Below, one piece after another: positions 7,264 through 32,489 of a DNA stretch of 36,886 bases. Where the stretch lies: assembly GCF_005930495.1 (NCBI RefSeq), contig NZ_SJEX01000050.1:1-36886 (forward strand), written 5' to 3'. This stretch comes from Modestobacter excelsi. GTDB taxonomy: Bacteria > Actinomycetota > Actinomycetes > Mycobacteriales > Geodermatophilaceae. Position numbers and translations under genes: made by a program. The notes beneath the pieces are model-generated. The model made no database searches. It saw only the letters and a list, made by a program, of their open reading frames with translations, and was not told the DNA's origin. How positions within the stretch are numbered: position 1 is the first letter of the stretch; every line of letters begins with the position of its first letter.

Positions 7264-7695
7264 TTCTTCGCGGAGGGCTGTCTCCCGCCGGGAACTGCAT
7301 GCCCACCTGACCGGCGTCTGGCGCGCCTCTCAGCGGTGGACAACCCGTGAGAGTGATACCACTGTCCCCTGATCGTGCGGCAGCCAGCAAGTCGCCGGCT
7401 GCTGGCTCCCCGAACGGTTGGCAACCCCGTCGTGGTCAACGATCGTTCACGTCGGCGGGGTCGTGTGCCGCCGCGCGCGCCGCATCTGTTGCTGACCTGC
7501 GCGACGCGGTTCGTCGCCGACCGGTCCACTTCCCGGCTCGAGGGCCAGTCGACGTGACTTCGTTCCGGCCACGTCAAGGATGCAGAAGGGGTGGAGCGTC
7601 AGCGGTCCCGCACGATGCCTGGCCGGTGGGGCCACGTCGGTCAGCTGGGTGGACCGGGCAGGTGTCCTGCAGACGTCCCGGTGTTTGCGACCCGC
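7264..7695. other. Intergenic, no gene recognised
   Basis: The 432 nt between the repeat protein and the MBL-fold gene contain only short frames without family resemblance or ribosome-binding sites. Both flanking genes end here (convergent), so it should hold terminators, but I find no convincing long hairpin. No tRNA-like structure is seen. Confidence 0.4.
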
Positions 7696-8742: not shown

Positions 8743-8860
8743 GGGCCCGACTCTGCCGTACGACCCGACCAGGTCAGGCGACGGGGCTCGGCGCTCGCCA
8801 TGACATCCGAGGACGCCGACGGTGAGCTCACGGCTGCCCTCCGGCATGGGCGGGCGGGAG

Positions 8861-9859: not shown

Positions 9860-9963
9860 GAGGTGATTCTGGACGGAGTGTGCGTCCCCGTGCAGGCTCG
9901 GACCGTCCGCCGGCATCATGTCCGCTCGATGCCACGGCGCGTGGCGAGCACCTGTGCCGCAGA

Positions 9964-10815
9964 GTGGCGGTGCACTGGCCGCTGCCTCGACGCGCCTGCC
10001 CGGTCCACGAGCCCGGTGGCGTCGGTCGCATGACGCTCGATCGACCGGAGGTCCTGAACGCCCTGACGCACGACATGGTCACGACCATGCAGCTCCAGCT
10101 CGATCGCTGGCGAGGTGACGCCGGCGTCCACGTCGTCGAGCCCGACTCGGTGCTGGCCATGCCGGAGATCGCCATCGGGCTGCCCCCGGGCTCGGGGACC
10201 ACGTACCTGCTCGCCCGTGCCCCAGGCCGGGTCGGTGCTCACCTCGCCCTGACAGGTGACCGGATGGACGCCGCCGATGCGCTCTACTGCGGATTCGCCG
10301 ACTCCTGCGTGCCCACCCGGGACCGCTCTACCCTCCTGGACGCCCTTGCCGACAGCACGGTGGACGACGCGCTGGACCTCCTCGATGCCGCACCGCTCCC
10401 CGAGAGCGAGCTCCGCGGCCAACGGCCGTGGATCGATGCCTGCTACGCGGCCGACCGCGTCGAGGACGTCGTGCACCTGCTCAGTGCTTCGGGGAACGCC
10501 CAGGCGCGCGCTGCCGCCACCCGCCTGTCCGAGCTCCCGCCCACCGCGTTCAAGGTGGTCTTCCGTTCATCGCGGGACGCGCAGTCGGACGCGAGTGTCG
10601 CGGAGACACTGCGCCGTGAGTTCCGGGTCGCAACGCGGCTCGTCGTCGGGCATGACGTGCAGAAGGGCATCCGTGCGACGGTCATCGACCGCGACGGGGT
10701 CCCGACGTGGGCGCCCAGCACCTTGGCGGCGGTGAGTGCAGACGAAGTGGACGCCTACGTCGCCCCCCTCGGCCCACACGAGCTCGACGTCACCGACGCC
10801 TCGCCAGGGTCGTGA
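9964..10815 (+). pseudogene. 3-Hydroxyisobutyryl-CoA hydrolase copy with catalytic core deleted
   Basis: The frame is open but the protein lacks about 74 residues found in the intact paralogue at 14671-15762. Sequence runs normally to RWRGDAGVHVV and then jumps to EPDSVLAMPE. This removes the crotonase-fold oxyanion-hole segment (AGGD), the YPKPVVALMDG strand and the GGGVG loop. Without these the thioester cannot be bound or polarised. The remaining E in AMPE and the C-terminal HIBCH-type domain (HWIDACY-like, KVVFRSSRDAQSD, IRATVIDRD) still show the origin. In family sequences VV and VVE-like stretches flank the missing part, so microhomology deletion is likely. The start is uncertain: GTG 9964 is one option, and the upstream frame is open to 9880. 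Confidence 0.7.
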
Positions 10816-19068: not shown

Positions 19069-20199
19069 TCAGGCGGGCTGGCTGACGGCGGCCGCGACGC
19101 GGCGGGTGACCCCGGGGACGTCGCCCTGGACGTGATCGAGGTTCCACTGGGCCATCTGCATGGAGGCGTCGACGACGGTCTTCACCCGGTCGAACCGGCG
19201 GGCGGTGAACGCTGCCCACAGGTCCTCGTCGACTGCGTGCCGGTCGGTCAGCAGCTCGGCGAGCACCGAGGCGTCCTCGAAGCCCATCGCGGCACCCTGC
19301 GCGATGGTCGGCGGGCAGGTGTGCACCGCATCGCCGATGAGCACCACCCGGCCGCGGTTCCACGGGGCGTCGAGGAGGTGGTGTTCGAACCAGGTGTAGT
19401 TCAGCTTCGCCGGGTCGGTGAACGAGTCGCGCACCTCGTCCCAGGGGCCGTGATAGGGGCGACTCAGTTCGAGGAAGTCCGCCAGCCGCTCCTCCGGGGT
19501 CTGGGTGGTGCGGTCCCGCGCCTCCTCGACGAGTGACCAGTAGGCCGTCGTCGGCGAGGTGGGGCAGACCAGGGCCATGTAGGAGGGGCCCCCGAAGATG
19601 GCGTGGAACTCGGTGACGTCAGTCGGCTTGGAACCGAACATCCGGAACGCGCCCATGCCCACGGACTTCGTCTCCAACGGGATCTCCAGGAGCCGCCGGG
19701 TCCAGGAGCGCAGTCCATCGGCCCCGACCACCACGTCGTAGCGAGCAGTGGAGCCGTCCGAGAAGTGGACGTCCACACCGTCGTCGTCCTGGGTGAGGGA
19801 GTCGATGGTCGTGGAGAACCGGAACCGGACGCCGGCCCGTTCCGCCCGGGCCACCAGGATCCTGGCCAGGTCGGGCCGGTACATGCCCACGGTGGAGGGC
19901 AGGTCCGGACCGCCGAACGGGATGTCGTCGACGCGGGCGACGATGGTCGCTGCTGGGTCGGGCAGCCGGATGACGAGCTGGGAGAACGGTTGGCCGACCT
20001 GCAGGCACTCGTCGAGCACACCCAGTTGCCGGAGCACCCGCAGTGCGTTGCCCTGCAGCGTGATGCCTGAGCCCAGCGCGCTCACCTCGGACTTGATCTC
20101 GACCAGGTCGACGGCGACACCAGCATCGGCCAGCAGGGCCGCGGCGGTGGTGCCGGCGGCGCCGGCACCGACGACCAGCACGTTCTTGACAGCGGGCAC
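19069..20199 (-). CDS. FAD-dependent monooxygenase, paralogue of the one at 31359-32489
   Basis: The 376-residue protein has VLVVGAGAAGTTAAALLADAG near the start, VVVGADGLRSWTRRLL in the middle and GRVVLIGDAVHTCPPTIAQG in the FAD-binding C-terminal part. GTG 20199 is preferred to the longer ATG at 20271: a GAGGAG lies at the right distance and the predicted length then equals that of the right-module paralogue (376). The two share long identical stretches such as ALGSGITLQGNALRVLR and MYRPDLAR, so they are products of duplication or recruited from one subfamily. The likely role is hydroxylation of a (hetero)aromatic ring ahead of extradiol cleavage. The substrate is unknown. Confidence 0.88.
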   Translation of the reverse strand: MPAVKNVLVVGAGAAGTTAAALLADAGVAVDLVEIKSEVSALGSGITLQGNALRVLRQLGVLDECLQVGQPFSQLVIRLPDPAATIVARVDDIPFGGPDLPSTVGMYRPDLARILVARAERAGVRFRFSTTIDSLTQDDDGVDVHFSDGSTARYDVVVGADGLRSWTRRLLEIPLETKSVGMGAFRMFGSKPTDVTEFHAIFGGPSYMALVCPTSPTTAYWSLVEEARDRTTQTPEERLADFLELSRPYHGPWDEVRDSFTDPAKLNYTWFEHHLLDAPWNRGRVVLIGDAVHTCPPTIAQGAAMGFEDASVLAELLTDRHAVDEDLWAAFTARRFDRVKTVVDASMQMAQWNLDHVQGDVPGVTRRVAAAVSQPA

Positions 20200-20316
20200 G
20201 GCAGGACTCCTCGTCGAGTGGTGGATCACGTTGGGAACGGCGTGGCTTGTGCGGACATGCGCATCGGACATCGCTCGGATCCATCCGCTCGATGACCGGT
20301 GCAGCAGCTCGCCCGG

Positions 20317-21600
20317 TCAGCCGACCAGCGTCCAGAGCAGGAAGGCGTTCAGGCCGATGATCGCGGCGGCGGCGACGGCGGCGGCCGCGGTCGTCACCGG
20401 CCGGTTGACCAGGTCGCCCATGACCGCGCGACGGCGGGTCAGCAGCACCAGGGGGACCAGCGCGAACGGGATGCCGAAGGAGAGCACCACCTGCGAGGCG
20501 ACCAGGGCGGTGGTCGGGTCGATCCCGATGGTCAGCACGACCAGCGCGGGGGCGAGGGTGAGCGCCCGGCGGCCCAGCAGGGAGATCCGGCGGCGCACGA
20601 ACCCCTGCATCACGACCTGGCCGGCCAGGGTGCCCACCCCCGAGGAAGCGAACCCGGAGGCCAGCAGGGTGAGGGCGAACAGCGTGGCGGCCGGCGCGTC
20701 CAGCGCCCGGGCGAGACCTGCGTGGACGCCCTCGAGGGTGTCGGTACGCGGGATGTCCGAGCCGTGGAACAACCCCGCCGCGACGATCAGCATCGCGGCG
20801 TTGACCAGCCCGGCCAGCCCCATGGCCACGACGACGCCCCGCCGGTGGGCTCGGAGCAGGTGACGCCGTTCTGCCGACGTGGGCGCCTCGTCCCGCCGGC
20901 AGGTGAGCGCACTGTGCAGGTAGATCGCATGCGGCATGACCGTGGCGCCCAGGATGCCCGTGGCCAGCAGCAGGCTGTCGGTCCCGGCGAGGCCGGGCAG
21001 CAGGCCACCGGCCAGGGGCGCCGGGTCCACCGGCACGCGCAGCAGGGTGATCAGGAACCCGACGAGGATGACCGCGAACAGCCCGGTGATCGCCCGTTCG
21101 AAGGGGCGTTGCCCGCGGCCCTCGAGGGCCAGGAGGACGAATGCGACCGCGCCCGTCACGGCTCCGCCGAGCGGGAGCGGCAGTCCGAACAGCAGGTTCA
21201 GCGCGATGGCGCCGCCGATCACCTCGGCGAGGTCGGTCGCGATGGCCACCAGTTCGGCCTGGAGCCACAGTCCCCGGTTGACCGCGGGACGGAACGTGTC
21301 GCGGCAGACCTCGGGCATGCTGCGGCCGGTGGCCAGGCCGAGCTTGGCCGAGAGGGTCTGGACCAGCATGGCGAGCAGGTTGGCCGCCACGATGACCCAG
21401 AGCAGCAGGTAGCCGTGCGCGGCACCGGCGGAGAAGTTGGTCGCGAAGTTGCCCGGGTCCACGTAGGCGATCGCGGCGACGAACGCCGGCCCGAGCATCG
21501 TCGGGAGAGCAGCGCGACGGCCCCCCGTTCGTCGCCGGAGGCCGTGCGGCGTCGGGGACACGGCTGGGGGCGACGGGACGGTGACCTCGATGGTGGCCAT
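20317..21600 (-). CDS. mntH: Nramp-family divalent metal (Mn2+/Fe2+) transporter
   Basis: The 427-residue integral membrane protein has about 11 hydrophobic helices. The Nramp metal-binding motifs are DPGN (residues 48-51, helix 1) and the A-x-x-MPH segment (about 219-224, helix 6, GATVMPHAIYLHS). It should import Mn2+ or Fe2+ with protons. It lies within the leftward catabolic operon, 117 nt before the FAD monooxygenase and 121 nt after the extradiol dioxygenase, an enzyme class that needs Fe(II) or Mn(II). Placement suggests metal supply for ring cleavage; this is inference. The alternative is an unrelated housekeeping transporter that landed here. Confidence 0.9.
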   Translation of the reverse strand: MATIEVTVPSPPAVSPTPHGLRRRTGGRRAALPTMLGPAFVAAIAYVDPGNFATNFSAGAAHGYLLLWVIVAANLLAMLVQTLSAKLGLATGRSMPEVCRDTFRPAVNRGLWLQAELVAIATDLAEVIGGAIALNLLFGLPLPLGGAVTGAVAFVLLALEGRGQRPFERAITGLFAVILVGFLITLLRVPVDPAPLAGGLLPGLAGTDSLLLATGILGATVMPHAIYLHSALTCRRDEAPTSAERRHLLRAHRRGVVVAMGLAGLVNAAMLIVAAGLFHGSDIPRTDTLEGVHAGLARALDAPAATLFALTLLASGFASSGVGTLAGQVVMQGFVRRRISLLGRRALTLAPALVVLTIGIDPTTALVASQVVLSFGIPFALVPLVLLTRRRAVMGDLVNRPVTTAAAAVAAAAIIGLNAFLLWTLVG

Positions 21601-21721
21601 CCGGGTCTTCTTCCTCGTGGTCGGGGCCGCCGCGTCGTCGGCGCGGCGGGTGGTGGGTCGGGAACGCCGGCCCGGGGAGCCCGGTCGTCGTGGCGAGGGC
21701 CGGGATCCCCGAGCGCAGCGG

Positions 21722-22744
21722 TCAGCCGTTGCCGCGCTTGGCGTACGGGTTGATCAACTGGTCCTCGGTGCCCTCGAGCACGCCCTCCTCGGTGGCCGTG
21801 GGGTGACCGGGGTCGGGCGGGAAGGACTCGGTCATCGACATGGGCAGGCTGGCGTTGCGGTAGATGGAGGCCGAGCCCTGCGAGGGCTTCCAGACGGTCG
21901 GCTCCCAGTCGGGTACGTAGTTGCGGTAGCCGCCGGTGTTGAGCTCCACGCGGTACCCGGACGGCTCACGGAAGTACAGGAAGACCTGCTCGCCGATGCC
22001 GTGGATGGAGGGCCCGTACTCGATCATGGTGCCGTTCTCCATGAGCACGTCCGCGGCGTGCGCGAGCTCCTCGTAGGAGTCGGTCCAGAAGGCGATGTGG
22101 TTCGACCGTCCCGGGATCTGAGAGCTGTCCAGCACGATGCCCAGGTCGTGGGACTTCTCGTTGGTGGTGAGCACCCCGAACACGGTGATCGGGGCCTCAT
22201 CGAGCTCGGTGTAGGCCATGATGCGGAAGTCCAGGACCCGGCTGTACCACTCGCAGAACGCGCGGACGTCGGTGGCGGCGATGGTGACGTGGTCGAGGGT
22301 CCGTGGCGCGGCACCGTGGCTGGACTTCTTCTCCGGCCGGTCGGGGAAGATCGAGGCGTTCCCCTCGCCGTGGAAGCGGGGCAGTTCCCAGTACAGCTCG
22401 AGGGTGTGGCCCCACGGTCCGGTGAACTGGTAGGAGCGGCCGTGCCCGCGGCGGGGCTCGTGCCAGCTGCCGGTGATGCCCTCGGCCTCCACCTGGGCCG
22501 CGGCCTGCTCGAGCGCCTCGGCGCTCTGGGTGCGCCAGGCCATGTTGACCAGGGCCGGCTGCTCGCCGGGGGAGATGACGAGGCTGTGGCGGTAGTAGTC
22601 GCCCCAGCACCGCAGGTACACCGAGCCGTCGTCGTCCCGGTCGATGACGCGCAGGCCGAACTGCTTCTCGTAGAAGGCCACGGAGGCCTCCACGTCCGGC
22701 GAGGTGAGCTCCAGCTCGGTGAGCTGGGACAGGTACTTCGACAC
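21722..22744 (-). CDS. Extradiol catechol 2,3-dioxygenase (VOC fold)
   Basis: The 340-residue protein has two vicinal-oxygen-chelate domains. The C-terminal one holds the metal triad H152 (LDHVTIAATD), H216 (SNHIAFWTD) and E267 (GYRVELNTGG). It should cleave a catechol next to the hydroxyls with O2 and Fe(II)/Mn(II). GTG 22744 is chosen because GAAGGAG lies 5 nt upstream and family sequence starts there (SKYLSQLTELELTSPDVEAS); the longer ATG at 22870 adds non-family sequence. The C-terminal tail ends INPYAKRGNG. The gene starts 253 nt after the FAH gene on the same strand, so it may have its own promoter. Confidence 0.92.
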   Translation of the reverse strand: MSKYLSQLTELELTSPDVEASVAFYEKQFGLRVIDRDDDGSVYLRCWGDYYRHSLVISPGEQPALVNMAWRTQSAEALEQAAAQVEAEGITGSWHEPRRGHGRSYQFTGPWGHTLELYWELPRFHGEGNASIFPDRPEKKSSHGAAPRTLDHVTIAATDVRAFCEWYSRVLDFRIMAYTELDEAPITVFGVLTTNEKSHDLGIVLDSSQIPGRSNHIAFWTDSYEELAHAADVLMENGTMIEYGPSIHGIGEQVFLYFREPSGYRVELNTGGYRNYVPDWEPTVWKPSQGSASIYRNASLPMSMTESFPPDPGHPTATEEGVLEGTEDQLINPYAKRGNG

Positions 22745-22997
22745 GACAACTCCTTCATCACAGGGTGGGAACAGGGCTCGGTCGAGCCGGGTGTCGGGCG
22801 TCGGCCAGCCACGGCGTGGAATGGCCTTCTCGGGGCGTGCGTCAGCTGGTAACGGCAGCGGTCTCGCCATTCCCGGAATTGGCTTGAGTCGATGGGATGG
22901 CCCGGGGAATTACCTCGGGAGAAACGCTATGGGGCGCGCAGGAAAGGCGGAAATGCGGAGTGGGAATGCGTGTGATCCAGGTCGTGGATGACGCAGG
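22745..22997. other. Intergenic gap, likely internal promoter region of the leftward operon
   Basis: The 253 nt contain a locally lower-GC stretch (about 22870-22970) and no gene. A short palindrome ATTCC-C-GGAAT lies near 22869-22879. The gap is much longer than others in the operon, so a separate promoter for the dioxygenase-transporter-monooxygenase part is plausible. No clear -35/-10 pair can be assigned. Confidence 0.35.
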
Positions 22998-23972
22998 TCA
23001 CACGTCTTCGGCCACGCAGCGGTTGTGTTGGACGCCCAGCCCCTCGATCGCGGCCGACATGACGTCACCCGGCTGGAGCCACCGCTTCCAGTGCCCGCCG
23101 TTGCCGGCGGGGCTGCCGGTGAGCAGCAGGTCCCCTGGAAGCAGGACTGCTGCCGCCGAGGCCGAGGCGATCAGCCCGGGGACGTCGAAGAGCAGGTTGG
23201 CCGGGACGTCGTCCTGCATGCGCTCGCCGTTGAGGTCGAAGGTGATCCGCAGCTGCCGGTGGTCGGCCACCTGGTCGGCGGGGACGAAGAAGGGCCCGGT
23301 GGGCAGGAACGTCGGCCGGTGCTTCGCCCGCAGCCAGTCGCCGCCCAGCACCCGGTGCTCGGCCGGGAACTGCAGGTCGCGGGCGCTGACGTCGTTGCAC
23401 ACGGTGTACCCGGCGACGGAGTCCATCGCCTGTTCACGCGACACCCGGTGGGTCCGCGCGCCGATCACCACGGCCAGCTCGGCCTCCCAGTCCACCCGGG
23501 CGGCCTCCGGCGGGAGGAGGACGTCGTCGTCGGGGCCGCACAGGGCGCTCGGCAGCCCGACGAAGATGAACGGGCTGCCGCTGCGGACCTTCTGGTCCAT
23601 CTCCTCCTCGGCCGCCCGGCGGAGCTCGTCGTCGGATCGCGGGTCCTCCGGCGCCTTGCCGGACACGATCATCTCCGCGACGTGCGAGCGGTAGTTGGCC
23701 CCGGCCTGGAAGACCTGCCGCGGCTCCACCGGTGCCAGCACCCGCAGGTCGGCGACGGCCGCGCCGGCCGCCGGGGCCACCGTCCGGGCGAGTTCGGCGA
23801 GCCGGGGAGAGATGGTGGCCCATGCCTCGAGCAGGGCGAGGTAGGTCGCTGGTCCGTCGACCAGGTCGCCGTCCCGCAGCCGGTGCACCCGGTCCCCGAC
23901 GACGAGGCCGGGAAACGGCCCGGCGCCGTCGTCGAAGCGGCCCAGGGCGTGCCCGTCCACTGTGCGCATCAT
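22998..23972 (-). CDS. FAH-family hydrolase/hydratase (left module)
   Basis: The 324-residue fumarylacetoacetate-hydrolase-family protein has a metal site E163-x-E165 (DWEAELAVVIG) and D194 (CNDVSARDL). It also has GGDWLRAKHRPTFLPTGP and PGDLLLTGSPAGNG near the C-terminus. Members cleave C-C bonds of beta-diketo acids, hydrate 2-oxopent-4-enoates or decarboxylate oxalocrotonates; in a ring-cleavage operon a meta-pathway step is likely. ATG 23972, an adjacent second ATG at 23969 and AAGGA upstream define the start. It follows the enolase homologue by 16 nt and is a paralogue of the FAH gene at 29396, sharing PVEPRQVFQAGANYR. Confidence 0.88.
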   Translation of the reverse strand: MMRTVDGHALGRFDDGAGPFPGLVVGDRVHRLRDGDLVDGPATYLALLEAWATISPRLAELARTVAPAAGAAVADLRVLAPVEPRQVFQAGANYRSHVAEMIVSGKAPEDPRSDDELRRAAEEEMDQKVRSGSPFIFVGLPSALCGPDDDVLLPPEAARVDWEAELAVVIGARTHRVSREQAMDSVAGYTVCNDVSARDLQFPAEHRVLGGDWLRAKHRPTFLPTGPFFVPADQVADHRQLRITFDLNGERMQDDVPANLLFDVPGLIASASAAAVLLPGDLLLTGSPAGNGGHWKRWLQPGDVMSAAIEGLGVQHNRCVAEDV

Positions 23973-23988: not shown

Positions 23989-25281
23989 TCAGGCGGAGTG
24001 GGGGAGGGCCGCGGGACCGGCGTACTCGGCGCGCCGGCCGAGCTCCGCGTCGAGCCGCAGCAGCCGGTTCCACTTGGCGGTGCGCTCGGAGCGCATGGTG
24101 GAGCCGACCTTGATCTGGCCGGTGCGCCAGCCGACGGCGAGGTCGGCCAGCCAGTCGTCCTCGGTCTCGCCGGACCGCGCGGACAGCACCGTCGCGTAGC
24201 CGGCGGCATGGGCCGTGCGGACGACGGACCGGGCGGTGTCCAGCGTGCCGATCTGGTTCGGCTTGACCAGGACTGCGTTGCCGACCCCCTCGTCGATCCC
24301 GCGCTGCAACCGGTCGGGGTTGGTGACGAACAGGTCATCACCGAGCAGCTGGCGGCCCTGCAGCCGCTGGGTGGCGGTGCGCCAGCCGGCCCAGTCGTCC
24401 TCGCCGAGCGCGTCCTCGAGGGAGACGATCGGGTAGGCGGCGCACCAGTCGGCCAGTTCGTCGACCAGCTCCTCCGAGGTGAGCTCCCGGTCCTCGGCGG
24501 CGAGCACGTAGCGACCGTCCGCGCGCAGGAACTGGGTGGCCGCGACGTCGACGGCGATGCCGACGTCCTCGCCGGGCCGGAGCCCGGCTCGGGTGATGCC
24601 GGCGACCACCACGTCCAGCGCCGAACGGTTGGTCGGCAGCAGGGGACCCAGACCGCCCTCGTCGGCGACCAGCGCCACGGGCAGTCCGCGGTGGGCGAGT
24701 TCCTCCGCCGCGCCGGCCCGTACCCGGCCGGCCCAGTCGATGGCCTCGGTGAACGAGCTCGCGCCGACCGGGACGGCGAGGAAGTCCTGCACGTCGATCG
24801 ACCGGCCGGAGTGCGCGCCGCCGGAAATGATGTTGACCATCGGCAGCGGCAGCAGCGGGGCCGCGCCGTCGTCGGCGACGGCCTCGTACAGCGGCAGCGC
24901 CCGGGCGGCGGCGGCGGCGATCGAGGCGGCGACGGACACCGCGAGAACGGCGTTGGCCCCGAGCCGGCCCAGATCGGAGGTCCCGTCGAGGTGCCGCATG
25001 GTCCGGTCGAGGCCCGTCTGGTCCGTGGCATCCAGCCCGCGGACCGCGTCGGCGAGCTGGCCGGTCACGTTGGCCACCGCCCGCCGGACACCGTTGCCGC
25101 CGTGGCGGGCCTCGCCGTCCCGCAGCTCACGCGCCTCGTGCCGCCCGGTCGAGGCCCCGGAGGGCACCGTGGCACGGCCGGTCGCGCCGCCGTCCAGGCG
25201 GACCTCGCAGCCGACCGTGGGCTTGCCTCGGGAGTCCAGGGCCTCCCAGGCGAACAGGGAGGCGATCGTCGTGTCGCTCAT
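23989..25281 (-). CDS. Enolase homologue with altered active site
   Basis: The 430-residue protein aligns over its whole length with bacterial enolase. It keeps the mobile loop VPSGASTG, H157 in GGAHSG, E208 (ADEGG), metal ligands D245, E289 (SLED) and D315/316 (GDDLF), base K340 (VLVKPNQIGT), R369-S370 and K391 (GQIKVGS). Two positions differ from what I know of enolase. The SHRSGETED motif reads SARSGETED, so the active-site histidine is A368. The QEF glutamate reads QDF (D166). Those residues take part in phosphate/substrate handling and acid-base steps, so it may act on a PEP or 2-phosphoglycerate analogue rather than serve glycolysis. Its start overlaps the kinase stop (ATGA). A normal glycolytic enolase elsewhere in the genome is expected. 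Confidence 0.85.
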   Translation of the reverse strand: MSDTTIASLFAWEALDSRGKPTVGCEVRLDGGATGRATVPSGASTGRHEARELRDGEARHGGNGVRRAVANVTGQLADAVRGLDATDQTGLDRTMRHLDGTSDLGRLGANAVLAVSVAASIAAAAARALPLYEAVADDGAAPLLPLPMVNIISGGAHSGRSIDVQDFLAVPVGASSFTEAIDWAGRVRAGAAEELAHRGLPVALVADEGGLGPLLPTNRSALDVVVAGITRAGLRPGEDVGIAVDVAATQFLRADGRYVLAAEDRELTSEELVDELADWCAAYPIVSLEDALGEDDWAGWRTATQRLQGRQLLGDDLFVTNPDRLQRGIDEGVGNAVLVKPNQIGTLDTARSVVRTAHAAGYATVLSARSGETEDDWLADLAVGWRTGQIKVGSTMRSERTAKWNRLLRLDAELGRRAEYAGPAALPHSA

Positions 25282-26270
25282 GCGAGCAGCTCCCAGGAGT
25301 CGGTGATCGTGGCGGGGGGATCGGTGAGCAGCCGGCGGGCGAGGTCACGAGTGGTCCGCCGCTGGTCGTCGGTGAGGTAGTCGGCTGGGCTCTTCCCGTC
25401 GACCCGGGCGAGCAGCAGGCAGCCGGTCTGCCGGGTCAACTGGTCGGCGGCGATCCGGACGGCGCCGGCCAGCTCGGCGTCCAGGCCGGCGAGGAAGGCA
25501 CTCGCGGCGGCGGAGTACGCGACGGCGGTGTCCGGACGGTGGATCGACTTCAGCAGCAGGTGGCCGACGGTCCAGGCCGGGTCGAACGTCGGGTCGCCCA
25601 CGTGGGCCACCTCCCAGTCGATGACCCAGGGCTGCCCGCCGGACGGGTCCACGAGCACGTTCTTGGGGGTGTAGTCGCCGTGCACGAGGCACACCCGGCT
25701 GGCCGCCATGTCCTCGACGGTCCGCCCGATCACCCCCGCCAGGTCGGGGTGCCGCTCAGCCACGGTGCGGTGGAAGGGATCGACGCGGAGCTGGGTGAAC
25801 GCCGTGACGTCGTCGAAGTCGCGCGTGACGTCGGCCCGGCCGGCGGTGCTGCGCTGCCACATCCCGAGGGCGTGCCCCAGCTGCTCGGCCACCGACGGGT
25901 CGGCGTCTCCGGCGAGCAGGTCCTCCTTCCAGGTGCGCCAGGAGTCCGGCGCGCGTTCGATGACCAGGTAGCCGTCGGACAGGTCGAGGACCGCCGGGAC
26001 AGCTCCGGGCAGGAGCTGCCCGGCCAGCCGGAGCGCCCGCCCCTCGGTGTCGATGCGGGCCGGGTCGGCCAGCCACTCCTCGGCCACCCGCAGCCGGCCG
26101 AGGGCCTGCTTGACGACCACGTCCAGACCGGGGCCGCGGACGGCGACGACGTCGTTGGAGACACCCCCGGCCAGGGTGCGGACGTCCAGGTCGTCGGCGG
26201 AGGTGGCCAGTCCGCGCCGGACCAGGTGCGCGGTCAGCGCGCCGGTGCCCGGCACCGCGGCGGCGGTCAC
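25278..26270 (-). CDS. Phosphotransferase (APH/choline-kinase fold), methylthioribose-kinase-like N-lobe
   Basis: The 330-residue small-molecule kinase has the Brenner-type loop VHGDYTPKNVLVD (H197, D199, N204) and VIDWEVAHVGDP (D218 metal ligand). The N-lobe segment VVVKQALGRLRVAEEWLADP resembles methylthioribose kinase, with the ATP-binding lysine at about 54. It should phosphorylate a hydroxyl of a small metabolite, not an antibiotic in particular. GTG 26270 overlaps the dehydrogenase stop (GTGA), and its own stop overlaps the enolase-homologue start. Strict coupling with a dehydrogenase and an enolase homologue suggests the product is a 2-phospho-2-hydroxyacid-like compound; this is inference. 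Confidence 0.85.
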   Translation of the reverse strand: MTAAAVPGTGALTAHLVRRGLATSADDLDVRTLAGGVSNDVVAVRGPGLDVVVKQALGRLRVAEEWLADPARIDTEGRALRLAGQLLPGAVPAVLDLSDGYLVIERAPDSWRTWKEDLLAGDADPSVAEQLGHALGMWQRSTAGRADVTRDFDDVTAFTQLRVDPFHRTVAERHPDLAGVIGRTVEDMAASRVCLVHGDYTPKNVLVDPSGGQPWVIDWEVAHVGDPTFDPAWTVGHLLLKSIHRPDTAVAYSAAASAFLAGLDAELAGAVRIAADQLTRQTGCLLLARVDGKSPADYLTDDQRRTTRDLARRLLTDPPATITDSWELLA

Positions 26271-27280
26271 CGCTGCACCAACGGGAAGCGCAGCGCCGGG
26301 CTGCTGAGCACCTCGCGGTTGACCACCGTGGCCGGCACCCGGCCCTGCAGCACGTCGACGACGTTGGTCGCGGCCCTGGTCGCCAGCTCGATGAGCGACC
26401 CGTCGGAGGAGAACGCGGTGTGCGGGGTGAGCACGACGTCGTCGCGGGTGCGCAGCGGGTGGTCGGCCGGGAGCGGCTCGGGGTCGGTCACGTCCAGCGC
26501 GGCGCCGGCGATCCCCCCGGACTCCAGGGCGGCGAGCAGTGCCGCGTTGTCGATCAGCGGTCCGCGGGCGGTGTTGACCACCCACGCGGTCGGCTTCATC
26601 CGGCGGAGCTGCGCGGCGCCGATGAGGTGGTGGGTGCGCGCGGTGAGCGGCACGTGCAGCGAGACCACGTCGGCCTGCTCGAGCAGCTCGTCCAGCGAGG
26701 CCACGGCGCGGCCGCCCGCGGGCGCATGCCCGGACAGGTCGAAGGCGATGACCTCGAGGCCCAGCGCCTGGGCGCGGGAGGCCAGAGCCGAGCCGATGAC
26801 GCCCAACCCCACGAGCCCGAGCACCTTGCCGCGCAGCCGGGTGCCGGCGCCGGGCACGTCCCGGCCCCAGAGCCCGGCGGCGACGTCCCGGGTCAACGGC
26901 AGCAGCCGGCGGGCCAGCGCGAGTATGCCGAGCAGGGCCGAGTCGGCGACCTCGTCGACGCAGTAGACCGGCACGTTGCTCACCACCATCCCGAGCTCGG
27001 TGGCGTGGCCGACGTCGATGTTGTCCACCCCGACGCCGTACCGGGCGACCGTCCGGCAGCGGACCGCGGCGTCGAGGACCGCGGCGGACACCGTGGCGAA
27101 GCAGGTCAGGATCGCGTCGGCGTCCGGGGCCAGCCCGACCAGCTCGGCCTCCTCACCGCTGGGGGCCAGCACCAGTTCGATGCCGGCTGCCACGAGCACC
27201 TCGCGTTCCACCTCGGTGGTCGGCCAGGCGATGTCGGTCACCAGTACCCGGGCCGTCCTGTGCGTGCGGGCGTCGGTCAT
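26267..27280 (-). CDS. D-isomer 2-hydroxyacid dehydrogenase (CtBP-like)
   Basis: The 337-residue enzyme has the NAD-binding GLVGLGVIGSALASRA (G158-x-G160-x-x-G163). Catalytic R239 is in NTARGPLID, E268 in DVTDPEPLP and H287 in TPHTAF. The N-terminal VARYGVGVDNIDVGHA and VSNVPVYCVDEVAD segments are of the C-terminal-binding-protein-like/phosphoglycerate-dehydrogenase type. It interconverts a 2-oxoacid and a D-2-hydroxyacid with NAD(P)H. ATG 27280 follows GAGGAGG. It is the first gene of the leftward operon, divergent from a LysR gene across a 120-nt gap with two inverted repeats. The next gene overlaps by 4 nt. Confidence 0.9.
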   Translation of the reverse strand: MTDARTHRTARVLVTDIAWPTTEVEREVLVAAGIELVLAPSGEEAELVGLAPDADAILTCFATVSAAVLDAAVRCRTVARYGVGVDNIDVGHATELGMVVSNVPVYCVDEVADSALLGILALARRLLPLTRDVAAGLWGRDVPGAGTRLRGKVLGLVGLGVIGSALASRAQALGLEVIAFDLSGHAPAGGRAVASLDELLEQADVVSLHVPLTARTHHLIGAAQLRRMKPTAWVVNTARGPLIDNAALLAALESGGIAGAALDVTDPEPLPADHPLRTRDDVVLTPHTAFSSDGSLIELATRAATNVVDVLQGRVPATVVNREVLSSPALRFPLVQR

Positions 27281-27365: not shown

Positions 27366-27383
27366 CCGTGATGGCCATCACGG
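27366..27383. promoter_or_regulatory. Perfect 18-bp palindrome CCGTGATGGCCATCACGG before LysR gene
   Basis: The palindrome is continuous, without a spacer, and lies 18 nt before the preferred LysR start at 27401. Perfect 18-bp symmetry is unlikely by chance even at this GC content. It is a candidate autoregulatory operator, separate from the spaced repeat at 27301-27332. It contains an alternative GTG/ATG start (27368/27371), which would place it inside the gene; the start choice at 27401 argues against that. Confidence 0.5.
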
Positions 27384-27400
27384 GCGGGGAGGAGGAACTG

Positions 27401-28354
27401 GTGAAGCTCGGTCAGGTGGACCTGAACCTGCTCGTGGTGCTCGACGCGGTGCTGCGGGAGAAGAACGTCACGCGGGCGGCGGAGAGCCTGCACCTGTCCC
27501 AGCCGGCGACCAGCACCGCGCTGGCCCGGCTGCGGCGGGTGCTGGGAGACGAGCTGCTGTACAAGAACGGCCGGTACATGGAGCTCACGCCCCGGGGGGA
27601 GTCGCTCATCGAGCCGGTCCGCGAGGTGCTGGCGACGATCGAGCAGACCATCGTCCGGCCACCCGTGTTCGACCCGACCCGGGACACGCGCCGGTTCTCG
27701 GTCGTGGCCAGCGACTACGTGGGAGTGACGCTGATCCGGCCGCTCATCGCGCGGCTCTCCGGGCTGGCCACGGACCTCCGGCTGGACGCCGCGCCGGTCG
27801 GCGCGCGGTACCTCGACGCCCTGCAGCGGGACGAGGTCGACGTCGCGATCCTGCCCGACCAGATCGTCGACCAGCGGTCGCTGTCGGACTGCTCGCAGCT
27901 GCCCGTCATCGCCGACCGCTTCGTCGGTGCCGTGTGGAGCGGGCACCCGCGGGCGGGGGACCGGCTCACCGCTGCCCTGCTGGCCGACTCGCCCTACCTG
28001 GAGTACGTCGTGGAGGGGCGCAGGTCCATCGTCGAAGAACAGCTGGACGCAGTCGGGTGCACCCGTCGCGTGGCCGCGACCGCGAGCGGGTTCGTGCCGA
28101 TGCCGTTCATGCTGGCCGGGACCGAGCTGGTCGCGGTGCTGCCGGAGCGGCTGGGCCGGCGGGTCGCCGGCGCTGCGGACATCAGGCTCCTGGAGCCGGA
28201 GATGGACCTGCAGCCGCTGCGACAGTCGGCCTTCTGGCACTCGCGGCGCGACCGGGACCCCGGACACGTCTGGCTGCGCGAGCAGCTGGCCGTGGTGGCC
28301 CGGGAGGAGGGGGTCGAGCTGGCGTCCGGCGTCGTTGGCCCGGGGACTGCCTGA
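27401..28354 (+). CDS. LysR-family regulator of the left module
   Basis: The 317-residue regulator has the NodD-like start VDLNLLVVLDAVLREKNVT, the helix-turn-helix SLHLSQPATSTALARLRR and a full LysR effector domain. GTG 27401 is preferred over 27368 because GGAGGAGGAA lies just upstream and the protein then begins exactly in family style. It diverges from the dehydrogenase-kinase-enolase-FAH genes and so probably senses an aromatic compound or ring-cleavage product and controls them. It is a paralogue of the convergent LysR gene at 28373: both read DLNL.VVL.A.L.E.NVTRA and LSQP.TS.ALARLRR. Confidence 0.9.
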   Translation: MKLGQVDLNLLVVLDAVLREKNVTRAAESLHLSQPATSTALARLRRVLGDELLYKNGRYMELTPRGESLIEPVREVLATIEQTIVRPPVFDPTRDTRRFSVVASDYVGVTLIRPLIARLSGLATDLRLDAAPVGARYLDALQRDEVDVAILPDQIVDQRSLSDCSQLPVIADRFVGAVWSGHPRAGDRLTAALLADSPYLEYVVEGRRSIVEEQLDAVGCTRRVAATASGFVPMPFMLAGTELVAVLPERLGRRVAGAADIRLLEPEMDLQPLRQSAFWHSRRDRDPGHVWLREQLAVVAREEGVELASGVVGPGTA

Positions 28355-28372: not shown

Positions 28373-29308
28373 CTATCCCAGACCCGCCGGCTGCGGCTGA
28401 CCGAGGCCGGCGCTCACCTCCGTGAGGACGTCGACCAGCCAGCGGTGACCGGGGTCGAGGCGCCGGCTGGGGTGTGACCACGCGGTCTCGGTGATCGGTG
28501 GCAGTTCGACGGGCAGCTCGACCACCCGTAGGTCGTGCGCGGTGAGCTCGCCCGCCAGTCGCTCGTGGAAGAGCACCAGCAGTTCGGTCCCCACCACCAG
28601 CCGGTCGAGCAGGCTGAAGCTCTCCACCCGGACGGCGCAGTGCCGGTCGACGCCCAGGGTGGCCAGCGCGGCATCGGCCGGGGAGGCCATGAGCAGCTCC
28701 TGGAAGGGCATGACCCAGCGCGCCCGGCCGACGTCCGCCAGGCTCAGCCGGTCGCCGACGGCGGTGTTGCCCCGCCACGTCGCGCACACCCAACGGTCGC
28801 GGTACAGCTCCACGCTCGGGACGTCGGGCAGCGAGAACAGCCCGCGCGGGACCACCAGCAGGTCGACGTCCCGCAGCAGGGCCAGCGGATCGGTGACCAC
28901 CCGCCTGTCCAGCGACCGGAGGTCGAGGCTCACGTGGGGCGCGGCGCGGGTCACCGCGGCGACCAGCCCCGGACCCAGGACGGTCAGCACCGAGTCCGAG
29001 CAGGCCACCGTGAAGCGCCGGTCGGCGGTGGCCGGGTCGAACCGCGGCTGTGCCGCCAGCACCCGCTGCAGCTGTTCCATGGTCGAGCCGAGCTGACCCC
29101 GCAGAGCCTGCGCCAACGGGGTCAGCTCGTACACCGTGCCCACCCGCTCCAGCAGCGGGTCGTCGAAGTGGCGGCGCAACCGGGCGAGCGCGGAGCTGGT
29201 GCCCGGCTGGCTCAGCCCCACCCGTTCACCGGCCCGGGTGACGTTGCGCTCCTCGAGCAGGGCGTGCAGGACGACGACCAGGTTGAGGTCGAGGCTGGGC
29301 AGCTCCAC
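28373..29308 (-). CDS. LysR-family regulator of the right module
   Basis: The 311-residue LysR regulator has helix-turn-helix ERVGLSQPGTSSALARLRRH and a C-terminal effector domain. GTG 29308 follows AGAGGAGT and gives the family-type start LPSLDLNLVVVLHALLEERN; the longer frame to 30382 is a shadow of the FAH gene. It diverges from the FAH-dioxygenase-monooxygenase genes that start at 29396 and converges on the paralogous LysR gene, with 18 nt between their stops. It likely controls the right module. Relatedness of the two regulators suggests that inducers are similar. Confidence 0.9.
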   Translation of the reverse strand: MELPSLDLNLVVVLHALLEERNVTRAGERVGLSQPGTSSALARLRRHFDDPLLERVGTVYELTPLAQALRGQLGSTMEQLQRVLAAQPRFDPATADRRFTVACSDSVLTVLGPGLVAAVTRAAPHVSLDLRSLDRRVVTDPLALLRDVDLLVVPRGLFSLPDVPSVELYRDRWVCATWRGNTAVGDRLSLADVGRARWVMPFQELLMASPADAALATLGVDRHCAVRVESFSLLDRLVVGTELLVLFHERLAGELTAHDLRVVELPVELPPITETAWSHPSRRLDPGHRWLVDVLTEVSAGLGQPQPAGLG

Positions 29309-29355
29309 CGGGACTCCTCTGTGACCGGCGCCATCAGCGAGCCGGATGGCCAGGC

Positions 29356-29370
29356 ATACCAAAGCGGTGT
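29356..29370. promoter_or_regulatory. Imperfect repeat ATACC-N5-GGTGT, candidate LysR box
   Basis: This A/T-richer spot in the 87-nt gap between the divergent LysR and FAH genes has dyad symmetry (4 of 5 bp paired) and the spacing of a LysR-type half-site pair. It is weak evidence, resting on position and local composition. Confidence 0.3.
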
Positions 29371-29395
29371 TTCCGCTCCGCCCACCGGGCAGCTG

Positions 29396-30388
29396 ATGCT
29401 GGTCATCGTGCCGCTCACCATCGACCATGCCGGCAGTTGGGCTCTCGCGTCCCTGGCGACACCCAACAGTCCTGCCTTCCCCGCGCTCGTCGTCCGCGAC
29501 CGGGTGCTCGACCTCTCCGACCGCCCGGAGCTGGGTCTGCCGTCCTCCACCCGGCAGCTGCTGGACCGGTGGGACGACGCGCGTCCCGTGCTCGAGGACC
29601 TGGCCGGCTCGACGGGGGAGTGGCGGCCGCTGGACGGGCTGACGGTGCTCAGCCCCGTCGAGCCCCGGCAGGTGTTCCAGGCCGGCGCCAACTACCGCAC
29701 GCACGTCATCGACATCGCCGTCGCCCACCACGACGCCTCCGACGGCCGCACGGTCGAGCAGGTGCGGGCCGACGCAGCGGCGGAGATGGACGCCCGGTTG
29801 CAGCACCCGCCCTACGTCTTCCAGGGGCTGCCCAGTGCGATCACCGGTGCCTACGACGACGTCGTGCTGCCCTTCGACGGACGGCAGCCGGACTGGGAAC
29901 TCGAGCTGGCCGCCGTCATCGGCCGCCGCGCCCGCCGGGTGGCGGTCGAGGACGCACTGGACGTCGTCGCCGGCTGGACGATCGTCAACGACCTCACCCT
30001 GCGCGAGCGGATCTTCCGCCGGGACGCCCCGGCGTTGGGCGCCGACTGGCTGGCGGCGAAGAACTCGCCCACCTTCCTGCCCACCGGCCCGGTCCTGGTG
30101 CCGCGCGCCGCCGTCCCCGACCCCTCTGACCTGCGCATCGAACTGCGGCTCAACGGCGAGGTCATGCAGGACGAGTCGACCAAGGACATGCTCTTCGACG
30201 TCGCGCACGTCATCGCCCACTGCTCGACCGTGGCGACCCTGCTCCCCGGTGACCTCGTGCTCACCGGCAGCCCGGCCGGCAACGGCCTCCCACGTGGCCG
30301 CCTGCTGCGCGCCGGCGACCGCATGGACTCCACCATCACCGGCCTGGGCGCCCAGGCCAACCGCTGCGTCTCCGAGGAGCACTCATGA
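29396..30388 (+). CDS. FAH-family hydrolase/hydratase (right module)
   Basis: The 330-residue protein has the metal ligands E168-x-E170 (DWELELAAVIG) and D199 (IVNDLTLRER). It also carries GADWLAAKNSPTFLPTGP and PGDLVLTGSPAGNG, as in the left-module paralogue. It should act on a ring-cleavage product (C-C hydrolysis, hydration or decarboxylation). ATG 29396 is taken as start although the ribosome-binding site is weak; the frame is open far upstream, but that part overlaps the opposite LysR gene. The stop overlaps the dioxygenase start (ATGA), showing tight coupling of the two steps. Confidence 0.87.
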   Translation: MLVIVPLTIDHAGSWALASLATPNSPAFPALVVRDRVLDLSDRPELGLPSSTRQLLDRWDDARPVLEDLAGSTGEWRPLDGLTVLSPVEPRQVFQAGANYRTHVIDIAVAHHDASDGRTVEQVRADAAAEMDARLQHPPYVFQGLPSAITGAYDDVVLPFDGRQPDWELELAAVIGRRARRVAVEDALDVVAGWTIVNDLTLRERIFRRDAPALGADWLAAKNSPTFLPTGPVLVPRAAVPDPSDLRIELRLNGEVMQDESTKDMLFDVAHVIAHCSTVATLLPGDLVLTGSPAGNGLPRGRLLRAGDRMDSTITGLGAQANRCVSEEHS

Positions 30389-31323
30389 GCGACCGTCTGA
30401 TCACCCACCTGCGGCACGTCGACCTGGCGGTGCCGGACTTCGACAAGCAGCGCGAGTTCTACACCACCCTGTGGGGGCTCACCCCGGTCGCCGAGGACAA
30501 CGGCATCGTCTTCCTCGCTGCCGAGGGCTCGCCGGAGCAGTACATCGTGCGGCTGCGCAAGGACGCCGACAAGCGACTGGACCTGGTCTCCTACGGCGCC
30601 GAGTCGCCGGCGGACGTCGACGCCCTGGCCCAGCGGCTGGGCACCGCCGGCGTCCAGCTGGTCAGCGAGCCCGATGTGCTGCAGACGGCCGGCGGCGGCT
30701 ACGGCTTCCGCTTCTTCGACGTCGACGGCCGCACCATCGAGGTGTCCGCCGACGTCGCCGTCCGGCAGCACCGGAAGATCGAGGAGCGCGAGGCCATCCC
30801 CGTCCGGCTGTCGCACGTGGTCCTCAACTCCCCGGATCCGTCGCGCACCCAGGCCTTCTACGAGACCCACCTGGACTTCGCGCTGTCGGACACGCTCACC
30901 CACCCGTTCGGCGGGGACCTGATGAAGTTCATGCGCTGCAACCCGCAGCACCACAGCATGGCGATCGCCAAGGGCCCGCATGCCTCCCTGCACCACGTCT
31001 CCTTCGAAATGCGCGGCCTGGACGAGTACATGCGGGGCACCGGACGGCTGCTGCGCGCGGGGACCCGGATGATCTGGGGTCCGGGCCGGCACGCCGCCGG
31101 CGACAACACCTTCAGCTACTTCCTCGACCCGCACGGCAACACCATCGAGTACACGACCGAGCTGGAGCTGCTGGACGAGGACGCCTGGCACCCGAGCGTC
31201 TACGACGTCTCGCTGCCGGAGAACCAGGACCAGTGGGGGACGGCGAACCCGTTCGGCGAGCTGCTGGCCAAGGAGAGCTTCAACGACGTGGACCGCGGCC
31301 TGTTCGTCGCGCCCCCGATCTGA
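30385..31323 (+). CDS. Extradiol dioxygenase (VOC fold), right module
   Basis: The 312-residue, two-domain VOC protein has metal ligands H144 (RLSHVVLNSPD), H204 (LHHVSFEM) and E255 (NTIEYTTELE), the standard type I extradiol dioxygenase triad. It should open a catechol-type ring using Fe(II) or Mn(II). It is only distantly similar to the left-module enzyme at 21722, so the two may cleave differently substituted catechols. The start overlaps the FAH stop by 4 nt. The C-terminus ends in FNDVDRGLFVAPPI. A 35-nt gap with GAAGGAG separates it from the monooxygenase. Confidence 0.9.
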   Translation: MSDRLITHLRHVDLAVPDFDKQREFYTTLWGLTPVAEDNGIVFLAAEGSPEQYIVRLRKDADKRLDLVSYGAESPADVDALAQRLGTAGVQLVSEPDVLQTAGGGYGFRFFDVDGRTIEVSADVAVRQHRKIEEREAIPVRLSHVVLNSPDPSRTQAFYETHLDFALSDTLTHPFGGDLMKFMRCNPQHHSMAIAKGPHASLHHVSFEMRGLDEYMRGTGRLLRAGTRMIWGPGRHAAGDNTFSYFLDPHGNTIEYTTELELLDEDAWHPSVYDVSLPENQDQWGTANPFGELLAKESFNDVDRGLFVAPPI

Positions 31324-31358
31324 CCCGACCCACCCGTCCCGGACGAAGGAGTCCTCCC

Positions 31359-32489
31359 ATGGCCGCTGTGGACAGCGTCCTCGTGATCGGCGGCGGTGTC
31401 GCCGGCGCCGCCACCGCGATCCTGCTGGCCGACGCCGGCGTCAGCGTCGACCTGGTCGAGATGAAGCCCGACGTGACCGCGCTCGGGTCGGGCATCACCC
31501 TGCAGGGCAACGCCCTGCGGGTGCTGCGCGAGCTCGCGGTGCTCGACGAGTGCCTGGTGCAGGGCTACGCCGCCGACCAGCTGGTGATCCGCGCGCCCGA
31601 CCCGGCGGCCACCGTGGTCGCCACGCTCACCGAGCACAGGTCCGGCGGTCCAGACCTGCCGGCCAGCATGGGGATGTACCGCCCGGACCTGGCCCGCGTC
31701 CTCATGGGCCGGGCCGAGCGGGCCGGGGTCAAGACCCGGTTCTCGACCACGGTGCAGGACCTGGAGCAGGATCCCTCGGGCGTCGACGTCCGGTTCACCG
31801 ATGGCTCGACGGGGCGCTACGACCTGGTGGTCGGCGCCGACGGGCTCCGCTCCTGGACCCGCCGACTGCTCGACGTCCCGCTCGAGACGCGCTCGGTCGG
31901 CATGGGCATCTGGCGGGTGTTCGCGCCTCGGCCGGCCGAGGTGGTCAGCTCCGAGGCGGTCTACGGCGGCCGGTGCTACATCGCCGGGTACACGCCGACG
32001 TCGGAGTCCTCGCTCTACGCCTTCCTGGTCGAGGACGCGCAGGACCGCACCACCATCACCGACGAGGAGAAGGTCGCCGTCGTCCGGGACCTGGCCGGCT
32101 CCTACGGCGGCCCGTGGCGGGAGATCCTCGAGGCGATCACCGATCCCGCCGCGATCAACTACACCTGGTTCGAGGAGCACCTGCTCGACGCCCCGTGGCA
32201 CCGCGGTCGGGTGGTCCTGGTCGGCGACGCCGCGCACACCTGCCCGCCCACCCTCGCCCAGGGCGCAGCTCAGGCCCTCGAGGACGCGGCCGTGCTCGTC
32301 GAGCTGCTCCTCAGCGCCGACGTCCTGGACGACGACCTGCTGTCGGCCTTCACCGCACGCCGGCTGCCGCGGGTGCGTGAGGTCGTCGAGGCCTCCGTGC
32401 AGCTGGCCCGCTGGCAGTTGGCGCACGAGCAGGGCGACGTCCCCGCGCTGATGGGCCGGATCGCGCAGCTCACCAGTACACGAGCCTGA
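31359..32489 (+). CDS. FAD-dependent monooxygenase, paralogue of the one at 19069-20199
   Basis: The 376-residue protein has VLVIGGGVAGAATAILLADAG, VVGADGLRSWTRRLL and GRVVLVGDAAHTCPPTLAQG, the three FAD/NAD(P)H signatures of UbiH/PHBH-type hydroxylases. ATG 31359 follows GAAGGAG at a suitable distance. It closes the right module (FAH, dioxygenase, monooxygenase). It is exactly as long as its left-module paralogue and shares many runs with it. Ring hydroxylation that yields the catechol for the neighbouring dioxygenase is the natural reading; the aromatic substrate cannot be told from sequence. Confidence 0.9.
   Translation: MAAVDSVLVIGGGVAGAATAILLADAGVSVDLVEMKPDVTALGSGITLQGNALRVLRELAVLDECLVQGYAADQLVIRAPDPAATVVATLTEHRSGGPDLPASMGMYRPDLARVLMGRAERAGVKTRFSTTVQDLEQDPSGVDVRFTDGSTGRYDLVVGADGLRSWTRRLLDVPLETRSVGMGIWRVFAPRPAEVVSSEAVYGGRCYIAGYTPTSESSLYAFLVEDAQDRTTITDEEKVAVVRDLAGSYGGPWREILEAITDPAAINYTWFEEHLLDAPWHRGRVVLVGDAAHTCPPTLAQGAAQALEDAAVLVELLLSADVLDDDLLSAFTARRLPRVREVVEASVQLARWQLAHEQGDVPALMGRIAQLTSTRA

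Follow-up and report, generated by a model that had tools for sequence, protein, structure and literature searches.

A recurrent kinase-enolase gene pair with a remodelled enolase pocket in Modestobacter excelsi and other prokaryotes: a candidate catabolic module for C3-substituted 2-hydroxyacids

A glycerate 2-kinase working together with enolase is a known route of the serine cycle and of the non-phosphorylative Entner-Doudoroff pathway, and the diketo-hydrolase route for L-rhamnose and L-fucose combines an SDR enzyme with an FAH-family hydrolase. Enolase homologues are also known to take other substrates, as does the carboxyphosphonoenolpyruvate synthase of phosphinothricin biosynthesis. 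Our subject is a set of three genes in a 36,886-nucleotide stretch of Modestobacter excelsi DNA (contig NZ_SJEX01000050.1 of assembly GCF_005930495.1, positions 1 to 36,886, referred to here in its entirety as the window), which encode a D-2-hydroxyacid dehydrogenase, an APH-family kinase and a homologue of glycolytic enolase. The kinase and the enolase are the core unit of a module that recurs in bacteria and archaea, with the dehydrogenase as an optional feeder. The logic that we propose for this module, in which a 2-hydroxyacid is converted to a 2-phosphate and then to an enol phosphate, is shared with the glycerate 2-kinase route; the module differs from that route in that its kinase is of the APH family rather than of class I, II or III and in that it has a dedicated enolase with an altered pocket. 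Several relatives of the module share FAH and SDR partners with the diketo-hydrolase route, to which the module adds a kinase and an enolase, and the two hydrolases that were scored against the hydrolase model of that route (157.8 and 342 bits) fall under its cut-off of 500. No description of a kinase-enolase module was found in the open-access literature, in line with the initial annotation, which knew of no pathway with this combination; subscription journals lie mostly outside that scope, so this is weak evidence of absence.

The window sequence and its open reading frames place the dehydrogenase, kinase and enolase genes contiguously on the minus strand (Table 1). Four nucleotides are shared at the dehydrogenase/kinase junction (plus-strand TCAC at 26267-26270, minus-strand GTGA) and another four at the kinase/enolase junction (plus-strand TCAT at 25278-25281, minus-strand ATGA), while the start of the FAH gene, at 23972, is 16 nt past the enolase stop. 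The overlaps and the FAH spacing, both given in the initial annotation, were confirmed at the sequence level, and the overlapping junctions support its view that the three products are made together. When 97 genomes (its own included) were searched with the kinase, five matches reached E < 1e-100, namely the genome itself and four relatives (G006, G032, G042 and G090). In each of these relatives the dehydrogenase stands before the kinase, the enolase comes after it and the start of an FAH gene is next, the three proteins being 72-92% identical. The dehydrogenase-kinase-enolase-FAH set is patchy among close relatives but kept intact.

The window enolase scores 473.5 bits against the glycolytic enolase model TIGR01060 (cut-off 300) and contains both Pfam enolase domains (PF00113 and PF03952). 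In common with glycolytic enolase it has the fold, the metal-ligand and phosphate-binding (SGAST and RSG) motifs, and both the catalytic lysine and the glutamate that acts as general acid. Its predicted model has a mean pLDDT of 91.5, and the 50 best solved structures listed for the model are all enolases, with a TM-score over the model of 0.91-0.96. Residues K340, E208, D245, E289, D315 and K391 match the housekeeping copy and are invariant across 12 aligned sequences (window included); in enolase these residues are the catalytic lysine, the general-acid glutamate, the metal-binding D/E/D motifs and the second lysine. The housekeeping copy is an ordinary enolase encoded in the same genome, 51% identical to the window copy, with SHRSG and QEF where the window copy has SARSG and QDF. 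The replacement of the SHRSG histidine by alanine and of the QEF glutamate by aspartate, as first annotated, is therefore borne out both in the codons and against the housekeeping protein. D166 aligns with Glu168 and A368 with His373 (yeast numbering), so that the Glu168/His373 pair of ordinary enolases has no match in the window enolase. Yeast enolase has Glu168, Glu211 and His373 placed about the C3 hydroxyl or the water that is formed, and its Lys345 abstracts the C2 proton. With smaller side chains at two of these three contacts of the C3 hydroxyl, the substrate is probably not D-2-phosphoglycerate.

Nine alignment positions separate module enolases (81 rows) from ordinary enolases (30 rows). 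Four of them (window S153, D166, A368 and V392) have become smaller or less polar, with Asn changed to Ser or Gly, Glu to Asp, His to Ala or Gly, and Thr to Val or Ile, the last of these beside the second catalytic lysine; Gly206 to Ala is also among the nine. At none of the nine positions in this comparison is the usual replacement an Arg or a Lys. Because the pocket positions are smaller or less polar while Glu211 and Lys345 are kept, the sequences suggest that elimination at C3 is retained and that the C3 substituent is bigger or is without the hydrogen bonding of a free hydroxyl. A pocket altered in this way would suit a glycerate substituted at O3 better than an acid whose C3 group is charged. 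We considered 3-sulfolactate and other strongly charged C3 groups and set them aside, as the nine positions bring no common new Arg or Lys that would be expected to suit them.

The altered signature is carried by the kinase-linked enolases as a group. The signature alignment held 79 rows, comprising 77 kinase-linked enolases, the window protein and the housekeeping copy, and in four rows at least one of the two sites was missing; the kinase-linked rows were drawn from 8 plasmid loci and from 69 of 80 contig loci (one with its enolase 9 kb away), with plasmid loci L111-L118 outside the count. Position 168 was Asp in all 75 readable kinase-linked enolases, and of the 73 in which position 373 was readable, 65 have Ala there, 6 have Gly, one has Thr, one has Val and none has His. 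A tree of 113 rows was then made by a quick search without bootstrap, with columns 168 and 373 left out and six partial rows dropped; seven module enolases stand in it twice (once from the contig locus and once refetched from the genome). All 82 Asp168 rows fell on one branch (SH-aLRT 100), apart from 31 others (30 with Glu168/His373, or E/H, and one E/E), and bacterial and archaeal module enolases clustered together, as would be expected of the separate clade that the initial annotation suggested looking for. At least two enolases were present in 34 of the 36 kinase-carrying genomes searched, and the two single-enolase genomes had the ordinary type. Among the 73 enolase matches in these genomes, the 40 that were read comprised 29 ordinary E/H enolases, 10 with Asp168/Ala373 (D/A) and one haloarchaeal E/E. 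The E/E protein (L169, from the genome of L069) is a third enolase, with Glu for His373, beside ordinary and D/A copies. The window copy thus differs from glycolytic enolase in E168D, H373A/G, N-to-S/G and T-to-V/I, in its separate branch and in being additional to an ordinary copy. An extra enolase beside an ordinary one calls for another substrate, and the initial argument against a purely glycolytic role for this homologue is supported; it is not the sole enolase of its genome. Family scores, gene order in the four relatives and substitutions kept across phyla together place the observation beyond chance.

To describe the distribution of the kinase, genome contigs were scanned with a kinase alignment and the best-scoring 80 of 543 relatives were kept, which is not a random sample. 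These loci span Actinobacteria, haloarchaea, Acidobacteria, Verrucomicrobia, Armatimonadetes, Chloroflexi, Proteobacteria, Bacteroidota, one spirochaete and Bacillota-type metagenome-assembled genomes (MAGs). An enolase on the same strand, at most 700 bp from the kinase, was found at 68 of the 80, which together with the full set in the four relatives answers the question of conserved co-occurrence raised in the initial annotation. Among the 66 kinase-enolase pairs with called gene ends, 46 overlap, 13 are spaced by 1-60 nt and 7 are wider apart. Genes of the relatives were called with our own simple gene finder, which called no kinase in L065 and L091, and L031 and relative L004 seem to be one locus, as their contig number and coordinates agree between G097 and G006.

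Plasmids gave a similar association. A plasmid search with the kinase returned 37 records, and the 17 regions that were read all contain an enolase homologue: it adjoins the kinase on the same strand in 12, belongs to a facing operon a few kb away in three (Rhizobium) and is divergent on the opposite strand in two (Enterobacter, L119 by annotation position only). One of the 12, from a plasmid of Rhizobium sp. RCAM05350 (L112, about 7953-10270), has its kinase and enolase homologues in pieces with two matches each, and this copy may be decaying or mis-sequenced. The Enterobacter enolase homologue (L029 at 6205-7476; L119 at 6205-7476 by annotation position), which is divergent from an APH kinase, is 31% identical to the window enolase and reads AGRSIDS and CEKGG in place of the SHRSGET and GDEGG found elsewhere. 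It is one of the Gly373 rows, has also lost the general-acid motif and sits on a very long branch. The L029 kinase is followed by genes for a U32 peptidase, an aminotransferase, an iron-containing redox enzyme, an M14 peptidase and an MFS protein, a run that looks like a biosynthetic cluster.

The same association was also approached by starting with the enolase. Of 296 genomes in the phylum, 47 match the module enolase profile at E < 1e-170 and 30 loci were read; a D/A enolase weaker than this limit would escape. Kinase motifs lay within about 1.5 kb in all three SARSG loci (own included) and in none of the 27 SHRSG loci, whose enolases all have both Glu and His. A kinase profile gave six matches in the same 296 genomes, consisting of the three SARSG genomes and three weaker ones (G172, G236 and G263), and no SARSG enolase was seen at the kinase loci of the latter. 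The kinase-enolase module is rare in this phylum.

A Pfam scan of the window kinase at E 0.001 returned APH and a sub-threshold TCAD9 match only, and the motifs HGD, PKN and GKSP are invariant in 12 aligned kinases (window included). The kinase belongs to the same family as MtnK (S-methyl-5-thioribose kinase) and other APH kinases, and MTRK is its best NCBIfam match. However, its score of 49.4 bits against TIGR01767 is far under the cut-off of 275, and the invariant GKSP near the C-terminus is a further difference, so the MtnK-like identity given in the initial annotation was abandoned. Glycerate kinase classes I-III were rejected as well, as the kinase falls in none of the class families by Pfam scan, and the three classes as described contain no APH proteins (PMC2063504). 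The window dehydrogenase matches both PF02826 and PF00389 (2-Hacid_dh_C at 195 bits), and its catalytic Arg (R239) and catalytic His (H287) are invariant in 9 aligned sequences, window included. We take this partner dehydrogenase to belong to a D-specific family, and it is proposed to make a D-2-hydroxyacid.

Neighbouring genes were counted within 5 kb of the kinase at the 80 loci; the counts are descriptive, without a background set, and their labels were assigned by similarity to annotated genes of plasmids and of the window, so that other families are missed. CtBP-type dehydrogenases were found at 18 loci, FAH at 15, SDR at 13, sugar-type ABC parts at 10, flavin monooxygenases at 7, MR/MLE dehydratases at 4 and VOC at 3. 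The trio is therefore not the unit that it was first taken for, as the kinase and enolase make up the core and the dehydrogenase is close by at only those 18. Pfam scans of 60 hand-picked flanking proteins describe the contexts further. In Actinobacteria, Rhizobium and Sphingobium, FAH and/or VOC genes occur with the dehydrogenase, and on three Rhizobium plasmids a gene for phosphoenolpyruvate (PEP) carboxylase precedes the dehydrogenase and kinase, which suits PEP as the product. Roseibium and Paracoccus have kinase-enolase-FAH-SDR runs with sugar and tricarboxylate transporters, the Roseibium FAH matching the 2,4-didehydro-3-deoxy-L-rhamnonate hydrolase model over its full length at the 342 bits given above, and FAH and SDR without the dehydrogenase occur at L060, L086 and L106. 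The Microbulbifer pair (L075) follows an aldehyde dehydrogenase gene, with porphyranase-domain and SMP-30-type genes and a weak sulfatase match near it; porphyran contains 6-O-methyl-D-galactose. An aldo-keto reductase and an alpha-L-fucosidase lie near the pair in an Opitutaceae MAG (L089), and a galactonate dehydratase (568.5 bits, cut-off 311), a KDPG-type aldolase and a PfkB kinase in Streptomyces (L045).

Near its galactonate-dehydratase genes the Streptomyces locus (Streptomyces triticirhizae, L045 4641-6860) also encodes a predicted protein of 739 residues whose gene overlaps the kinase start and which has no Pfam match at E 1e-8. Haloarchaeal pairs are near MR/MLE dehydratases, and in two haloarchaea (L023 11041-12036 and L024 10696-11724) a ketol-acid reductoisomerase homologue stands among the sugar-acid genes near the pair, perhaps serving as an oxidoisomerase for a branched sugar acid. 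In a Negativicutes MAG (L056) the pair is followed by a LarAH10-group racemase and a lactate-type permease; this group is described as working mainly on hydrophobic 2-hydroxyacids, and LarAH10 itself as having very little activity with glycerate (PMC11770544). Other loci have neighbours without an evident link, e.g. TPR, M48 peptidase, helicase and guanylate cyclase genes. Relatives among sugar-acid dehydratases, sugar transporters and polysaccharide genes speak against a role confined to aromatic catabolism, and the initial interpretation as a whole is partly supported.

On balance we favour a substrate other than D-2-phosphoglycerate, handled by a kinase step and then an elimination. In the Modestobacter operon, ring cleavage by the VOC enzyme and hydrolysis by the FAH enzyme would give a 3-substituted pyruvate, which the dehydrogenase would reduce to the D-2-hydroxyacid. 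The APH-type kinase would phosphorylate the 2-hydroxyl of this C3-substituted acid. In the enolase, the retained lysine K340 (yeast K345) would take the C2 proton and the retained general acid E208 (yeast E211) would drive off the C3 substituent, leaving PEP or a PEP-like enol phosphate. The two enzymes would in this way be a catabolic module that feeds a C3-substituted 2-hydroxyacid into central metabolism. The underlying order from oxoacid to hydroxyacid, phosphate and enol phosphate is plausible. The gene order, the co-conservation, the changed residues and the single branch of the tree are observed, and from them we infer both reactions, the pathway order and the substrate. Our leading candidate, put forward tentatively, is a 3-O-substituted glycerate, for example 3-O-methylglycerate, which would yield PEP and methanol. 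It is preferred because it brings together methoxylated aromatics, 6-O-methyl sugars, a dehydrogenase of a D-specific family, a racemase group with mainly hydrophobic substrates and the absence of two C3-hydroxyl partners. More speculatively, the enolase subfamily might expel a C3 group other than water, most simply methanol, from a 2-phosphorylated glycerate derivative, so that bacteria and archaea could obtain PEP from O-methylated sugars and from methoxylated aromatics directly, with no demethylase.

Several points weigh against this proposal. Twelve of the 80 kinase loci are without an adjoining enolase; three of these contigs end within 330 bp downstream of the kinase and one has an enolase 9 kb off. 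Of the four others whose genomes were searched, L050 and L062 come from genomes with a D/A enolase at another place, but those of L063 and L081 carry only an ordinary enolase, so the kinase may serve other uses. In the FAH and SDR contexts and the MR/MLE dehydratase contexts, D- or L-glycerate would be no less natural a product than a 3-O-methyl compound, and porphyran also contains L-galactose.

Assimilation of L-glycerate, the second candidate, suits the diketo-hydrolase and L-sugar contexts better than 3-O-methylglycerate does, with the kinase forming L-2-phosphoglycerate and the altered enolase accepting this enantiomer to give PEP, although we consider it rather unlikely. This enantiomer, as 2-phospho-L-glycerate, is commercially available (PMC13228409). 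The acid itself would be derived either from L-hexonates, through the diketo-hydrolase route (SDR and FAH), or from L-glyceraldehyde, a source that fits the kinase-enolase-FAH-SDR runs with sugar transporters in Roseibium and Paracoccus, the dehydrogenase-free FAH and SDR of L060, L086 and L106, and the full-length resemblance of the Roseibium FAH to an L-rhamnonate-type hydrolase (342 bits, cut-off 500). The alpha-L-fucosidase and aldo-keto reductase near the L089 pair and the aldehyde dehydrogenase adjoining the L075 pair, with its porphyranase-domain gene, point the same way, and APH proteins are absent from the three described glycerate kinase classes (PMC2063504). Yet the galactonate dehydratase, KDPG-type aldolase and PfkB kinase of L045 indicate a D-sugar there, and inversion at C2 brings no obvious need to lose both C3-hydroxyl partners. 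Moreover, a dehydrogenase of a D-specific family would give D-glycerate.

A plain D-glycerate bypass, with a further type of glycerate 2-kinase and a private 2-phosphoglycerate enolase whose substitutions are tolerated or tune the rate, seems improbable to us. It agrees with the strong enolase similarity (473.5 bits, cut-off 300) and with the retention of metal, base and acid residues, and hydroxypyruvate could conceivably come from a ring with an extra hydroxyl; but the genome already has an ordinary enolase, and both substitutions hold without exception across domains and are lacking in 27 of 27 and 31 of 31 enolases outside the group. We see only a slight chance for 2,3-dihydroxy acids of at least four carbons, with an alkyl or hydroxyalkyl group at C3, from which water would be expelled and the longer enol phosphate would become a 2-oxoacid after phosphate loss. 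With His373 and Glu168 replaced there could be room for a C4 group, and the L056 pair is near a broad racemase of the hydrophobic 2-hydroxyacid type; a C3 hydroxyl would still require its binding partners, however, and the Rhizobium PEP carboxylase suits PEP itself.

The remaining genes of the window surround this set. For the window FAH, the best NCBIfam model is 2,4-didehydro-3-deoxy-L-rhamnonate hydrolase (NF053535, 157.8 bits, below its cut-off of 500). The divergent LysR-type regulator, judged by its position, likely controls the operon, and LysR homologues lie about 2 kb or less from the dehydrogenase start in L031, L032 and L034-L037. Two parallel sets of genes, each for an FAD monooxygenase, a VOC dioxygenase, an FAH hydrolase and a LysR regulator, stand on either side of the divergent regulators, at 19069-23972 and about 28373-32489; their FAH proteins are about 48% identical, and the dehydrogenase, kinase and enolase are present in only one of them. 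Between the monooxygenase and dioxygenase genes is a predicted metal-transporter gene (20317-21600), labelled NRAMP from its translation without a family search and kept in L031 at 93%, whose product may supply the dioxygenase metal.

Table 1 Position and identity of the Modestobacter excelsi window features discussed in the text
Feature	Position	Strand	Remarks
D-2-hydroxyacid dehydrogenase (CtBP/glyoxylate-reductase-like)	26267..27280	-	ATG start; Pfam 2-Hacid_dh, 2-Hacid_dh_C
APH-family small-molecule kinase	25278..26270	-	GTG start; Pfam APH 66 bits
Enolase paralogue, remodelled C3 pocket	23989..25281	-	ATG start; TIGR01060 473.5 bits
D166 codon (Glu168 yeast numbering to Asp)	24784..24786	-	Coding strand GAC
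A368 codon (His373 yeast numbering to Ala)	24178..24180	-	Coding strand GCG
FAH-family hydrolase	22998..23972	-	Pfam FAA_hydrolase 202.9 bits
VOC-family extradiol dioxygenase, same gene run	21722..22741	-	TIGR03211 catechol 2,3-dioxygenase 250.9 bits, below cut-off 320.2
FAD-dependent monooxygenase, same gene run	19069..20271	-	NF005313 388.4 bits, above cut-off 372
LysR-type regulator, divergent	27368..28354	+	Open reading frame

Enolase is a textbook enzyme whose genes are named by automatic annotation. Five annotated plasmid copies with the altered signature were read, four of them named phosphopyruvate hydratase and one enolase; across the plasmid records read the annotation is likewise phosphopyruvate hydratase or enolase, except for the Enterobacter homologue (hypothetical protein), and L028, L030 and L112 list no gene at the enolase position. 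A separate enolase branch with a kinase partner in both bacteria and archaea implies an overlooked catabolic step. Identification of the substrate would correct these annotations and supply a further way to reach PEP from unusual sugars and aromatics. It would also test whether enolase chemistry takes other leaving groups or enantiomers.

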